Source: Microcaldota archaeon | GTDB taxonomy: Archaea; Micrarchaeota; Micrarchaeia; Micrarchaeales; CABMGC01 | Assembly: GCA_028866785.1 (NCBI GenBank) | Contig: JAGWHN010000007.1 | Span: 5,230 to 38,963, forward strand | DNA: 33,734 nt | Reading direction: 5' to 3' | Shown here: positions 1,165 to 8,779 of the stretch, piece after piece | Layout of the letters: the number at the start of each line of letters is the position of its first letter | Position numbering within the stretch: the first letter of the stretch is position 1 | The notes under the pieces: model-generated | Seen by the model: only the letters and a program-made list of their open reading frames with translations | Told to the model about the DNA's origin: nothing | Databases searched by the model: none | Translations under genes and position numbers: made by a program

Positions 1165-1230
1165 AACTCGCTTAGCTAGGTGTTTAATTGTTTATAGCGA
1201 GGGATGGATTTGGACCATCGATCTCCGGGT

Positions 1231-1512
1231 GTCTCAATACTGCACAACGAAATAATTATCAGCCAAGTTTTTAATTTTTTCTTGGTTTTCCGTCAATTTT
1301 TGTCCGGGTTTCTTAAACTCAACGAAGCAAACACGATTGTCTTTTATTGCAATCCTGTCACAAACGACTGTTGGAGAAAAAACTTGCCAACCTTCTTTTC
1401 GAAGTCTTTCAGCAGCATCTTCCTCCATTTTCATTTGTTTATATCTTCGTCTTCTCTGGACTTCAGAATCTGAATTTTTCAAATTCTCAACATTTGACGT
1501 GTTGTACACCTT
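1231..1512 (-). mobile_element. tRNA intron at position 37/38 carrying a nuclease frame (candidate homing intron)
   Basis: The intron is 282 nt. Its junctions fold as a bulge-helix-bulge: the exon stem CCGGG/CCCGG, a 3-nt bulge A-C|A (1232-1230), a central 4-bp helix formed by CUCA of the anticodon loop (1518-1515) with UGAG of the intron (1236-1233), and a 3-nt bulge U-A|A (1514-1512). An intron-internal 7-bp stem then pairs GUACAAC (1507-1501) with GUUGUGC (1248-1242), joined to the bulge by weaker pairs. Both cuts fall after the second bulge nucleotide, as the archaeal tRNA-splicing endonuclease requires. Archaeal tRNA introns are usually far shorter; the extra length here is the coding frame. 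Two sequence rows inside it contain 20 and 23 G+C of 60, lower than neighbouring genes. Confidence 0.82.
1234..1509 (-). CDS. Intron-encoded PD-(D/E)XK (VRR-NUC-like) endonuclease, putative homing enzyme
   Basis: The frame covers the whole tRNA intron. From the GTG at 1509 it gives 91 residues; a GTG at 1530, inside the tRNA 5' exon, would add seven. Numbering from that longer start, the protein has a basic helix (QRRRRYKQMKMEEDAAERL), then GWQVFSPTVVCDRIAIK with a catalytic-type Asp58, then VCFVEFKK with Glu71-x-Lys73, then KLTENQEKIKNLADNYFVVQ. This is the beta-hairpin/ExK/helix order of compact restriction-fold nucleases such as VRR-NUC and Holliday resolvases. The stop UGA is part of the UGAG that forms the central splicing helix. 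Its place inside a tRNA gene suggests it cleaves intronless tRNA-iMet genes; this is inferred, and PD-(D/E)XK enzyme I-Ssp6803I, encoded in a bacterial tRNA-fMet group I intron, is the nearest precedent I know. Confidence 0.72.
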   Translation of the reverse strand: MYNTSNVENLKNSDSEVQRRRRYKQMKMEEDAAERLRKEGWQVFSPTVVCDRIAIKDNRVCFVEFKKPGQKLTENQEKIKNLADNYFVVQY

Positions 1513-1574
1513 TATGAGCCCGGCGGGCACTCCAGGCTACCCTACCTCGCTATATGAGATAATGCACAAAAAGA

Positions 1575-4352: not shown

Positions 4353-4396
4353 GATTGAATCGCTTATACTATGCGGGAGTATCGGTTTTGATTGCT

Positions 4397-6310
4397 ATGG
4401 TAGAGACGCAGGACGAGTATAACGCATCAAAGATTGTGGTACTTGAAGGAGTCCAGGGAATCAGGAAAAGGCCGGCAATGTACATCGGATCAACAGGGCC
4501 TGGAGGTGTAGTCCACCTGCTCTACGAAGCGCTTGACAACGCTGTGGACGAGGCGATGGCGGGCCACTGCAACACGATAAAGATTACGCTTAGCACTGAC
4601 GGGACAGGGGAGATCGCAGAGCTCTCCGACAACGGAAGGGGAATCCCGATTGACATAATGCCAAAGTACAACAAGCCCGCTCTTGAGGTCATAATGACCT
4701 CTCTTCACTCTGGGGGAAAGTTCAACAATGATGTTTACAAGACTGCAGGCGGTCTGCACGGCGTCGGACTTACCGTAATAAACTCTCTTTCTGAATTCAC
4801 CGAAGTTTATGTCCACAAAAACGGGAAGAAGTACCAGATGACCTTCAGCAAAGGTTATCCCACATCAGAGCTAACGCAGGTTGGCGAAACCACAGAAAGA
4901 GGAACGACAATTAGGTTCAAACCAGACCCGGAAATATTCAATGCGCCCCACTTCAACGCGGATGTGCTAAAGGACAGGCTCAGGTACACAACCTTCCTAA
5001 ATCAAGGTCTCAAGATAATTCTTGTCGATTCAAGAACCGGCACAGAAGAAGTTTCAGAGTTCTTTTCGCAAAAGGGACTTGTCGATTTTGTTGAGTATCT
5101 CAATAAGGGAGTTGAGGTAATCACAGCCCCTATTCATTTCAAGAAGGAATCCGAAGGGATAACGGTTGAGATTGCCCTTCAGTACAACAAGGAGTATGAC
5201 GAGAAGATAGAGTCGTTCGTAAACAACATCAGGACCTCTGAAGGCGGAACCCACGTCATAGGTTTCCGTTCCGCGTTCTCAAGGGTCATAACAAATTACA
5301 TTGCAAAGAACGGAAGGGCCGACCAAAAGGAGATAAAGGTCGGAGGGGATGACGTCCGAGAAGGTCTTACAGGAATCATAAACGTCCTGATGCCTAATCC
5401 TGAGTTTGAGGGGCAGACAAAGGAGAAGCTCGGCAACACGCAAGTGAAGAGCCTTGTTGAAAACGTTGTCTACGCACAGATCTCAAGGTATCTTGAGGAG
5501 CATCCTGCGGAGGCGCGAATAATAGTCGAGAAGGTGATCAACGCCGCAATGGCGCGTGAAGCGTCAAGGCGCGCAAGGGAGCTTGTCAGAAAGAGGAGCA
5601 TATTCGAGAGCTCTGTGCTTCCGGGAAAGCTTGCGGACTGCCAAGAATCCGATCCCGAGAAGGCGGAGATATTCATAGTTGAGGGTGAGAGCGCAGGAGG
5701 CTCTAGCAAGCAGGGCAGGGACAAGAAGTTCCAGGCAATCCTTCCGCTAAAGGGAAAGATACTCAATGTAGAGAAGGCGAGCGTTGACAAGATATTTGAC
5801 AACGCAGAAATCCACGCAATGGTCGCCGCGTTCGGAACAGGGATAAAAGAGACGTTCAATCCAGACAAGATAAGATACAAGAAAATAGTTTTGATGAGCG
5901 ACGCCGACGTTGACGGAAGCCACATTAGGACTCTGATACTGACATTCCTCTACAGGTATCTCAAGCCGTTAATCGAGAAGGGATATGTCTACATCGCGCA
6001 GCCTCCGCTCTACAAGGTGACAAAGGGCCGAGAATCCTCATACTGCTACAGTGACGAGGAGCTTGAGGCGAAGATGAAGAATTACGATGGAAAGGCAGGA
6101 GTGCAGAGGTACAAGGGTCTTGGAGAGATGAACCCTGAGCAGCTCTGGGAGACCACAATGAACCCCGACAACAGGGTGCTAAAGAGGATCAACATACTTG
6201 ACGGAGCAAAAGCAGATGAGCTCTTCACAATACTGATGGGAGTGGATGTCGCAAGGAGAAGGAAGTTCCTTGAGGAGCACTCCGCGGAGGTAAAGTTCCT
6301 GGACGTATGA
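4397..6310 (+). CDS. gyrB: DNA gyrase subunit B
   Basis: A 637-residue protein from ATG 4397, normal for archaeal GyrB. The GHKL ATPase domain has YEALDNAVDEAM (catalytic Glu44, Mg-binding Asn48), DNGRGIP and GGLHGVGLTVINSLS. The transducer segment contains RTSEGGTHVIGF. The TOPRIM domain has VEGESAGGSSKQGRDKK, LPLKGKILNVEKA and SDADVDGSHIRTL, with the acidic Mg-binding residues in place. The C-terminus has QRYKGLGEMNPEQLWETTMN. With GyrA it forms the tetramer that introduces negative supercoils using ATP. The gene is followed after 9 bases by gyrA. Archaeal gyrases are regarded as ancient acquisitions from bacteria; a histone gene (32384) lies in the same window, so DNA is both wrapped and underwound. 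Confidence 0.98.
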   Translation: MVETQDEYNASKIVVLEGVQGIRKRPAMYIGSTGPGGVVHLLYEALDNAVDEAMAGHCNTIKITLSTDGTGEIAELSDNGRGIPIDIMPKYNKPALEVIMTSLHSGGKFNNDVYKTAGGLHGVGLTVINSLSEFTEVYVHKNGKKYQMTFSKGYPTSELTQVGETTERGTTIRFKPDPEIFNAPHFNADVLKDRLRYTTFLNQGLKIILVDSRTGTEEVSEFFSQKGLVDFVEYLNKGVEVITAPIHFKKESEGITVEIALQYNKEYDEKIESFVNNIRTSEGGTHVIGFRSAFSRVITNYIAKNGRADQKEIKVGGDDVREGLTGIINVLMPNPEFEGQTKEKLGNTQVKSLVENVVYAQISRYLEEHPAEARIIVEKVINAAMAREASRRARELVRKRSIFESSVLPGKLADCQESDPEKAEIFIVEGESAGGSSKQGRDKKFQAILPLKGKILNVEKASVDKIFDNAEIHAMVAAFGTGIKETFNPDKIRYKKIVLMSDADVDGSHIRTLILTFLYRYLKPLIEKGYVYIAQPPLYKVTKGRESSYCYSDEELEAKMKNYDGKAGVQRYKGLGEMNPEQLWETTMNPDNRVLKRINILDGAKADELFTILMGVDVARRRKFLEEHSAEVKFLDV

Positions 6311-6319
6311 GGGAGAAAA

Positions 6320-8779
6320 ATGGAAAACATAAAGAACGTCCTCCTGGAGGACGAACTTCAATCAAGCTACATTGACTACGCGATGAGCGTCATCATTGGA
6401 AGAGCCATCCCTGACGTCAGAGACGGCCTCAAGCCGGTCAACAGGAGAATACTCTATGCCATGTACAACATCAACAATGTCCACAACCAGCCCACAAAGA
6501 AGTCCGCAAGGGTTGTGGGAGACGTAATCGGTAAATACCACCCTCACGGAGATTCTGCCGTATACGAATCGCTTGTCCGAATGGCGCAGGACTTCTCAAT
6601 GAACCACACATTCGTTGAGGGACAAGGAAACTTTGGTTCGGTTGATGGGGACCCTCCAGCAGCAATGAGGTACACCGAAGTCAGGCTCACCAAGCTTGCG
6701 GAAGGAATGATCGACGACCTTGAGAGAAAGACCGTCGACATGATTCCAAATTACGATAATACGGAGCAGGAACCGGATGTGCTCCCTGCAAAGATTCCAA
6801 ACCTTCTGGTCAACGGAACCTACGGAATTGCAGTAGGCGTCTCGACAAGCATGCCTCCGCACAACCTGATCGAGGTTTGCGATGCGATTTCCTATGTGCT
6901 TGAAAACGAGGCTGCAACACCAAGCGACATACTAGGAATAATCAAAGGTCCGGACTTCCCGACCGGCGGAATTGCAATGATCTCCGAGAACACCTACAAC
7001 GGATACAAGTACGGGAGGGGCCAGGTAACAATAAAGGCAAAGGCAGAGATTGATTCAAAGGAGAACCAGATAATCATACACGAAATCCCATACAGCGTCA
7101 ACAAATCCGCGCTAATCCAAAATATCGCAGAGCTTGTTAAGGAAAAGAGAATCGTCGGAATCACAGACATTCGCGATGAGAGCGATACCGAAATCCGAGT
7201 TGTAATCGAACTTAGGGGAGACGTTCAGCCTGAGGTCATTCTCAACTCGCTCTACAAGCACACGCAGCTTGAGACCACATTCCCTATAATCAACCTTGCA
7301 ATCCTCGGAAAGAAGCTCAAGAACTTCAACATCCTTGAGCTCCTTGTAGCATTCATCAACCACAGAAGGGAAATCATAACAAGGAGAAGCACGTTCGAGC
7401 TCAATGTCGCAAAGGATAGGATACACATCGTTGACGGACTGCTCGTTGCGATTGCAAACATCGACCAGATGGTGAAACAAATTAAGGAGAGCAAGGAGCT
7501 CGCCTCCGCGCGCGCGATGCTGATGAAGGCATACGAGCTCTCCGAGAAGCAGGCGAATGCGATTCTCGACATGAAGCTCAGCAAGCTCACAAACCTCGAG
7601 TTCACCTCTCTTACGGACGAGAAAGTCGAGCTCGAGGGAAAGATCTCATACTACTCCGGCCTTCTTGCAGACCCGAAGAAGATCGATGCGATAATCAAGA
7701 CGGAGACCCTTGAAGTAAAGAAGGAGTATGGAAGACCGAGAAAGACCGAGCTAATGCAGGATGACGGCTCATCGGACAGGACAGAGGAGGACCTTATCGC
7801 CGATGATAGAATCAGCGTGATCTTCACCAATGTCGGATACGTAAAGAGAATGAACCTCACCACCTACAAGGAGCAGGCAAGGGGCGGAAGGGGAGTCATT
7901 GCAATCAACCTCAAGGACGGCGACTTTGTCAAGCAGATAATCTCATGCAAGGCGAAGGATTACCTGATTTGCATTTCAGACAAGGGAAGGGCATACTGGC
8001 TCAAGGCTTACCGCGTCCCTGAATCGAGCAGGTATGCGGAAGGGAAGGCGATTGTCAACCTGCTCAACCTCAAGGACGAGAAGATTGTCACGATAATGAG
8101 CATCAAGAACTTCGAGGACTCAAAGATAATGTTCCTGACCTCCCACGGCCTGATCAAGAAGATTAGCGCCAGGCTCTTTGCAAGGCCAAGGATAACGGGA
8201 GTCAGGGCAATAACGCTAAACGAGGGCGACACGATTGCGGATGCGGCAATCTACACGCACGAGAAGTACATCATGATTGCGACAAAGAAGGGCAAGTCCA
8301 TCAAGTTCGATGACGCGGACGTGAGGACCCTTGGAAGGGCCGCGATGGGGGTGCGCGGAATAAGGCTTGCGCCTGACGATGTTCCAAACAACATAATCCC
8401 TGTGGAGGAGACGGGATACCTTCTCACCGTCACCGAGCACGGATACGGGAAGCTCACCGAGATCAGCAAGTACCGCGACCAGAACAGGAGCGGAAGCGGA
8501 ATAATCAACCTCAAGGTCTCACCAAAGACAGGAGATGTGGCAAAGTCTGTATTCGTCCACGGAAAGTCGAAGGTGCTTATCATTAACTCTAAGGGAGTTA
8601 CGATCAAGTTTGAGGTTGACGAGATAAGAATAACCGGGCGAGCAGCATCCGGAGTGAGGCTCATGAAGGTTGAGTCATCCGCAAAGGTGGTCGATGCAAG
8701 AGTCCTTGACAGCTCCGAAGTCGTTGATGCGCCGTCGCTTCCGCCGCAGCCGACAAGCGATCCCGAGCCGGCAGCCTAG
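6320..8779 (+). CDS. gyrA: DNA gyrase subunit A
   Basis: An 819-residue protein. The winged-helix/breakage-reunion domain has [20 protein letters not shown], the quinolone-determining segment [12 protein letters not shown] (Ser79 and Glu83 at the two classic resistance positions) and AAMRYTE with the DNA-linking Tyr118. The C-terminal half is a six-bladed beta-pinwheel; its GyrA box reads [10 protein letters not shown] (about residue 519), close to the consensus QRRGGRG, supporting true gyrase rather than topoisomerase IV. A short Pro/acidic tail ends the protein. It begins 9 bases after gyrB with a GAGGGA ribosome-binding sequence across the gap. Its last four bases overlap the convergent helicase gene. 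Confidence 0.98.

Follow-up and report, generated by a model that had tools for sequence, protein, structure and literature searches.

An intron that fills an archaeal initiator tRNA gene with a VRR-NUC-like nuclease frame is a likely homing element

The stretch of DNA described here (the window, 33,734 nt of contig JAGWHN010000007.1 from a Microcaldota archaeon) carries on its minus strand an initiator tRNA-Met (iMet) gene that is split one nucleotide 3′ of the anticodon, between nt 37 and 38, by an intron that is nearly all a single open reading frame (ORF; Table 1). An earlier note on this DNA, made from the letters and a list of ORFs, had placed a 282-nt intron exactly at this position, and the coordinates were confirmed base by base. 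As that note had also claimed, the two exons give a complete initiator tRNA: the 75 nt obtained by joining them are called tRNA-Met(cat) by ARAGORN and agree at every base with the uninterrupted tRNA-Met in L099, L100 and L103, three of four intronless relatives examined, the fourth, L101, being different. The interrupted gene is missed by ARAGORN when the window is searched directly, the sole call there being a tRNA-Lys. The tRNA splicing endonuclease (PF01974) was found in all six related genomes searched, three of which are intron carriers.

The fold at the splice junctions was computed as the minimum-free-energy (MFE) structure of the whole, unmodified 357-nt precursor. The bulge-helix-bulge motif claimed earlier stands on the exon side, where the exon stem CCGGG/CCCGG is followed by a 3-nt bulge (AC^A) and a 4-bp helix (CTCA/UGAG), but not on the intron side, which forms an internal loop of 4 nt versus 2, a lone pair and then an 8-bp helix (UGUACAAC/GUUGUGCA), with no clean 3-nt bulge. 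Three further loci with the same nuclease, L002, L003 and L004, are described below. The exon-side bulge and 4-bp helix are present in the MFE structures of the window, L002 and L004, in all of which the intron-side internal loop measures 3-5 nt versus 2, and they are not present in that of L003. The pair probability of the central helix is 0.74-0.78 in the window, 0.90-0.97 in L002, 0.85-0.91 in L004 and about 0.05 in L003, which keeps the same CTCATA and TGAGAC-ACCC ends despite its unpredicted central helix. As modeled, the window splice motif is a relaxed, not strictly canonical, bulge-helix-bulge. Coding and splicing signals appear to be interlaced: the TGA stop codon of the ORF is part of the strand predicted to pair to the CTCA of the anticodon loop, and the AAGGTG at the 5′ end of the intron is placed where a Shine-Dalgarno sequence would be. 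A group I intron was rejected, as the tRNA-Lys is the sole hit when the window is searched with Rfam cmscan at gathering thresholds.

Table 1 Features of the interrupted initiator tRNA gene (window positions; MFE, minimum free energy).
Feature	Position	Strand	Basis or remark
5′ exon of tRNA-iMet(CAU), nt 1-37	1513..1551, 39 nt	minus	bases read; identical in L099, L100, L103
3′ exon of tRNA-iMet, nt 38 to discriminator A, CCA not encoded	1195..1230, 36 nt	minus	
Intron at 37/38, relaxed bulge-helix-bulge type	1231..1512, 282 nt	minus	
ORF in the intron, 91 aa counted from GTG (uncertain start codon), VRR-NUC-like PD-(D/E)XK nuclease	1234..1509	minus	
ACG aligned to the start ATG of L002 (ATA in L004)	1498..1500	minus	
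AAGGTG, intron 5′ end, putatively Shine-Dalgarno-like	1507..1512	minus	AGGTG precedes ATG in L002
Exon stem CCGGG, paired with CCCGG at 1225-1229	1519..1523	minus	precursor MFE
Central helix CTCA (nt 32-35), paired with TGAG 1233-1236; then UA^A, 5′ splice site 1513^1512	1515..1518	minus	MFE, pair probabilities
Central helix, opposite strand TGAG, stop codon TGA 1236-1234 inside; then bulge AC^A, 3′ splice site 1231^1230	1233..1236	minus	
Outer intron helix, 5′ strand TGTACAAC	1501..1508	minus	precursor MFE
Outer intron helix, 3′ strand GTTGTGCA, also coding	1241..1248	minus	precursor MFE
E29, invariant helix glutamate	1423..1425	minus	23-row alignment
D51, invariant aspartate (VCD), proposed catalytic	1357..1359	minus	23-row alignment
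E64-F65-K66, E and K invariant, proposed catalytic E-x-K	1312..1320	minus	23-row alignment

The single frame reported earlier (1509-1234) was confirmed, with all 91 codons open from the GTG at 1509, and comparison of the window with L002 indicates that it is conserved under selection. A protein search returned 22 homologues besides the query, at 51-86% identity over the aligned part and 19 of them at 64% or more, and 216 proteins, 120 of them listed, were matched in a profile search with E values up to 1e-9. Between the window and L002 (91 codon pairs), pS is 0.90 and pN is 0.187; synonymous change is saturated, so that only the direction of the contrast is safe, and that direction is the one expected of purifying selection on the ORF across phyla. 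A chance ORF was rejected because of these homologues and the pS/pN contrast, and by these comparisons the intron ORF is a real gene. Two plus-strand ORFs (1204-1473 and 1337-1618) are regarded as shadow frames, since the homologues match the minus-strand frame.

The start codon bears on a rival explanation in which the family is mobile and the window copy is a relic that has lost its start codon and makes no protein, the intron being kept as it is still spliced. This explanation, which is compatible with homing for the family as a whole, draws on the ACG found at 1500-1498 of the window where L002 has ATG, and on the broken copies in L003 and L004. Against it, the window copy has 91 open codons from GTG 1509, offers in-frame GTG and TTG codons as alternative starts and retains every residue that is invariant across 23 of 23 aligned proteins. 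A relic is judged unlikely for the window copy.

These residues (E29, D51, E64 and K66) constitute a PD-(D/E)XK signature with an upstream helix glutamate, and they remain at 90% or more in a wider 25-row alignment (A2, in which one row has a garbled end). The earlier note had read D58 and E71-x-K73 in this order; the order and the invariance hold, but that numbering was counted from an exonic GTG at 1530 and becomes D51 and E64-x-K66 from GTG 1509. The 23-row alignment also contains an invariant block of the family's own, SPT-V-CD. A search for nuclease similarity, proposed in the earlier note as a check, found the phrog_93 "endonuclease" profile in all 23 members (E up to 0.01, the best being 2.3e-8), and the family profile matches 4qbo, a VRR_NUC nuclease of known structure, with an E value of 6.9e-5. 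The Pfam VRR_NUC model (PF08774) falls short of its curated cut-off (16.8 vs 23.8 bits) and matches one of the 25 A2 members at E 0.01; because the cut-off is missed, the protein is labeled VRR-NUC-like and not a VRR_NUC member. In the predicted structure (pLDDT 87.5), the top Foldseek and VIA rows are the VRR_NUC chains 4qbo and 4qbn, and by profile, Foldseek and VIA alike VRR_NUC and FAN1 rank first among solved relatives, ahead of Hjc and RecU. A LAGLIDADG homing endonuclease was rejected, no Pfam match to that domain being obtained up to E 10. I-Ssp6803I, a homing enzyme considered below, is absent from the nine profile hits and from the displayed Foldseek and VIA rows, an absence that proves nothing. 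Sequence and structural model together moderately to weakly favor a VRR-NUC-like PD-(D/E)XK nuclease as the ORF product.

Bacterial VRR-NUC dimers have been described as Holliday-junction-resolvase-like, and the same could apply here: the enzyme might be a structure-specific nuclease that does not read a sequence but cuts a cruciform extruded from the inverted repeat of the anticodon arm, its mobility following from recognition of structure. The ranking of solved relatives agrees with such an activity, as do the match of 14 of the 23 members to phrog_5702 ("Holliday junction resolvase") and the nature of the target, an inverted repeat with 5-bp arms. Set against this, the SPT-V-CD block is specific to the family, and all four archaeal copies for which DNA was read (window, L002, L003 and L004) lie at one tRNA species. 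Recognition of structure is judged an improbable explanation.

The three further loci came from a scan of the genome collection, L002 and L003 from Candidatus Aenigmatarchaeota and L004 from Candidatus Micrarchaeota. All three have the nuclease gene within an iMet intron at 37/38, its frame being intact in L002, disrupted by a stop and a frame change in L003 and shifted in L004. The earlier note had held that frames broken at random in relatives would speak against its reading, and on this point the outcome favors that reading: two of the three copies are broken, but the intact one shows the signature of purifying selection relative to the window. When whole genomes were scanned, one of the 301 from Micrarchaeota and two of the 156 from Aenigmatarchaeota gave matches better than E 1e-20. 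Another 33 genomes (3 Micrarchaeota and 30 Aenigmatarchaeota) have weak matches alone (E up to 0.001), most covering profile positions 48-85; these were read as probable Hjc-type resolvases and are excluded from the carrier counts.

The uninterrupted iMet junction pattern occurs in 215 of the 301 Micrarchaeota and 28 of the 156 Aenigmatarchaeota genomes, and the 5′ exon pattern, run on the 301 only, in 235. The three carrier genomes all lack the uninterrupted pattern as assembled, so that the interrupted gene may be their sole iMet gene. The earlier question of whether another iMet gene is used is thus answered in part, for these three carriers. Genomes closest to the window were chosen through the neighboring TFE protein (PF02002), at 83% (G119), 68% (G120) and 66% (G121) identity. 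The order tRNA-Lys, TFE, initiator tRNA is common to the window and to the intronless relatives from these genomes, and because it matches, their loci are empty sites with conserved flanks, a comparison that the earlier note had proposed.

The identity of the nuclease does not follow that of its hosts. From the window to L002, L003 and L004, respectively, the nuclease is 64, 64 and 66% identical, compared with 38, 36 and 62% for proteasome alpha and 49, 48 and 68% for an exosome RNase PH subunit of the same genomes (two host markers only, named from Pfam). Across phyla the nuclease is thus no more distant than within its phylum, whereas both host markers drop across phyla. In sequence terms this pattern is a signature of horizontal spread, and because the nuclease departs from the two markers and carriers are few, its distribution is read as horizontal and sporadic. 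In a midpoint-rooted tree of 47 proteins, whose bootstrap was unsettled, the 20 rows labeled archaeal-intron form one clade (100/99), the label being given by similarity and the DNA context being seen for a minority of rows; the phage protein of L116 and P0042/P0043 stand beside this clade (93/87). P0044 (garbled end), L112 (the same protein as P0025) and L118/L119 were omitted.

The same observations bear on the proposal that the nuclease is a domesticated, host-useful enzyme (for recombination, defense or protection of tRNA genes from integrating elements) that is vertically inherited and sits in an intron by chance. Purifying selection on the ORF would be expected of such an enzyme, and the idea of introns as shields is put forward in one paper (PMC4090602). 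However, 300 of 301 Micrarchaeota and 154 of 156 Aenigmatarchaeota genomes have no match better than E 1e-20, the close relatives G119, G120 and G121 have an empty site, and the identity pattern departs from that of both host markers. Domestication is the least credible of the alternatives and is regarded as very improbable.

Introns at this position were surveyed in 18 stretches from 17 Micrarchaeota genomes that have the 5′ exon and no uninterrupted junction, and in 30 5′-exon loci, at least four further such genomes lying outside the survey. In 18 stretches or loci from 17 genomes, an intron of 15 to 302 nt was parsed at the same site, without this nuclease, and many of these introns are too short to encode it. 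The latter 17 genomes gave no nuclease match, except for a weak one elsewhere in the genome of G093. By analogy, introns with an intact ORF, introns with a broken ORF, nuclease-free introns and empty sites are the states that a homing cycle would leave behind; intact, remnant and short-hairpin classes are described for archaeal rRNA introns in PMC4496867. The weak G093 match occurs three times (C1 348567, 374556 and 400545; L014, L017 and L018) at an exact spacing of 25,989 bp, either a tandem duplication or an assembly artefact. Other Micrarchaeota iMet genes (L058, L062, L069, L078 and L098) appear to have insertions downstream of the anticodon arm, within the T arm or close to it, either in addition to 37/38 or in its place. 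In L092 and L094, the 37/38 introns are about 302 and 171 nt long with repeat-like sequence, and long open frames exist in L092; this nuclease had no match in the respective genomes, G109 and G111.

Relatives of the nuclease also occur free of introns. The eight top-scoring loci from a scan of viral sequences (L112-L119, E 2e-16 or better) carry free-standing relatives on seven contigs, L118 and L119 being two ends of one contig that is counted once. A tRNA gene lies within 600 bp on four of the seven contigs, and at none of the 71 generic VRR-NUC-like loci that scored lower in that scan. This comparison yields no probability, as the 71 controls are redundant (many similar marine phages) and the seven contigs are the top scorers. 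The stop codon of the nuclease gene ends 2 nt before a tRNA-Met in L112 and abuts a tRNA-Leu in L113, the ORF of L119 overlaps the start of a predicted tRNA-Ser by 6 nt, and the gene of L115 lies between tRNA genes; no tRNA was found within the available stretches of L114, L116 and L117. Named phage records, three of them in one search, gave partial matches only, the best at 51% over 56% of the query. The contig with L118 and L119 (IMGVR_UViG_3300031251_000002, viral, 166 kb) has 25 predicted tRNA genes in the 12.4 kb of its two ends; because the nuclease relative is repeated at both ends, it is probably circular or terminally redundant.

Read-through of protein flanks into tRNA sequence was tested by comparing 106 flanks, taken from 125 proteins, with 56 tRNA genes, with 50 shuffles each. 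Seven flanks exceed all their shuffles: three by a clear margin of 8 or more (P0127, P0015 and P0005), all of them matching tRNA-Met, and four by margins of 1-2 (Leu, Gly, Ser and Phe), which are probably noise. In P0127, a metagenomic protein, the matching flank is the N-terminus, which scores well above its shuffles against a translated tRNA-Met gene. The tail of P0098 has tRNA-Met as its best match and does not beat its shuffles. By eye, 9 of 127 proteins (P0003, P0005, P0006, P0015, P0016, P0046, P0051, P0052 and P0062) start with an apparent translated initiator exon, P0005 and P0015 alone among them clearly beating shuffles. The relatives P0094 and P0108, named as Nitrososphaerota/Nitrososphaerales proteins, have a different N-terminus (H-x-F-T-x-EER-x-x-GG-like).

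The earlier proposal of a mobile archaeal intron with a compact PD-(D/E)XK nuclease is supported by the empty sites, the conservation of the family and its spread across phyla, homing itself being inferred. The element is likely a homing tRNA intron, a protein-spliced archaeal intron whose PD-(D/E)XK endonuclease is aimed at initiator tRNA genes. The cell's tRNA splicing endonuclease would remove the intron RNA at the relaxed bulge-helix-bulge and so restore the essential initiator tRNA. At the DNA level, the VRR-NUC-like nuclease would most likely dimerize on the near-palindromic anticodon-arm DNA of intronless iMet genes and cut there, recombinational repair would copy the intron into the cut gene, and the insertion, by splitting the target site, would render the carrier immune. 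Some observations weigh against a homing intron. With ACG in place of the ATG of the intact L002, the window copy may use GTG 1509 as its start codon, or its function may be eroding; the splice motif is of the relaxed type and was not predicted in L003; the structure matches are weak; and the tRNA neighbors of the phage genes are not Met only.

The most likely history would be that a free-standing, phage-type, tRNA-targeting nuclease entered an ORF-less 37/38 intron, and that the resulting nuclease intron then spread among DPANN archaea. Such an event corresponds to collaborative homing, in which, according to PMC3984707, a free-standing endonuclease targeting the insertion site of an intron moves into that intron when it lacks an ORF. 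Both ingredients are present here, in the form of nuclease-free 37/38 introns and free-standing relatives beside tRNA genes. The balance tips slightly towards a broader view, in which a nuclease lineage specialized on tRNA genes, tRNA-Met above all, crosses domains: free beside phage tRNAs, and intron-borne in DPANN archaea with its ribosome-binding motif and stop codon inside the splice structure, it would have independently repeated the solution of I-Ssp6803I at the same anticodon arm.

I-Ssp6803I is a 150-aa enzyme encoded in a self-splicing group I intron of 655 nt. It is a PD-(D/E)XK homing enzyme whose intron interrupts the tRNA-fMet of the cyanobacterium Synechocystis (PMC1995217), in the anticodon region according to the title of Bonocora and Shub 2001 cited there. 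The two systems therefore share nuclease class, intron encoding, an initiator tRNA and the anticodon region; in contrast to the bacterial, self-splicing intron, that of the window is of the protein-spliced type and encodes a VRR-NUC-like protein of 91 aa. The earlier note had left the choice between convergence and exchange with this system. Convergence on the same tRNA is favored, because the relatives found are free-standing phage nucleases and no sequence or fold link to I-Ssp6803I appeared in the profile, Foldseek and VIA rows.

Among other known elements, SegB belongs to the GIY-YIG class. In T6 and other phages this free-standing homing endonuclease is associated with tRNA genes, and cuts within tRNA genes are reported (PMC13096335). 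It resembles the present viral relatives in being a free-standing nuclease gene near phage tRNA genes and differs in nuclease class, theirs being VRR-NUC-like with activity predicted. The LAGLIDADG enzymes of archaeal rRNA introns, as described in PMC4496867, likewise pair a bulge-helix-bulge intron with a homing gene, and the introns fall into the same intact, remnant and short-hairpin classes; there, however, the host gene is an rRNA and the nuclease another, whereas here it is a tRNA. Archaeal tRNA introns at 37/38 span 11 to 175 nt (PMC2738675) and agree in position and, in the window's relaxed form, in splice motif, but they are short and the available part of that source describes no coding in them, unlike the 282 nt of nearly all gene in the window. 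The stand-alone VRR_NUC nucleases and the FAN1 nuclease domain (4qbo, 4qbn and 4reb) are the best profile and fold matches; they are not known to be intron-borne, and the window family differs in missing the Pfam model and in its own SPT-V-CD block. Homing endonuclease genes occur in archaeal bulge-helix-bulge introns in general (PMC6125680). In the open-licence literature, subscription papers lying outside the search, no homing endonuclease of this class turned up in an archaeal tRNA intron, and the covered parts of the literature on VRR-NUC and homing endonucleases contain no archaeal tRNA case. The earlier statement that no archaeal case of this type is described thus agrees with that literature, and novelty is claimed provisionally.

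If correct, the homing reading would mean that the initiator tRNA, among the most conserved of RNAs, has been invaded twice by PD-(D/E)XK introns, one self-splicing and one protein-spliced. It would then be the tRNA counterpart of a conserved rDNA site that three kinds of element have independently invaded, as set out in PMC3943268. It would also supply a concrete, testable mode of gain for archaeal tRNA introns, with 37/38 empty, nuclease-bearing, decaying or occupied by a short intron among related genomes, and a 91-residue nuclease that reads the initiator tRNA gene would be a very small homing endonuclease.

Elsewhere in the window, an intergenic block downstream of the initiator tRNA (1001-1068), which may be a promoter or a small RNA, is 97% identical to L099 over 68 nt and has no Rfam match at gathering threshold, and a TTCCACTAATCG-like core similar to it is seen in several of L100-L110. 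At 4355-8779, this archaeal genome carries adjacent DNA gyrase B and A genes (Pfam).
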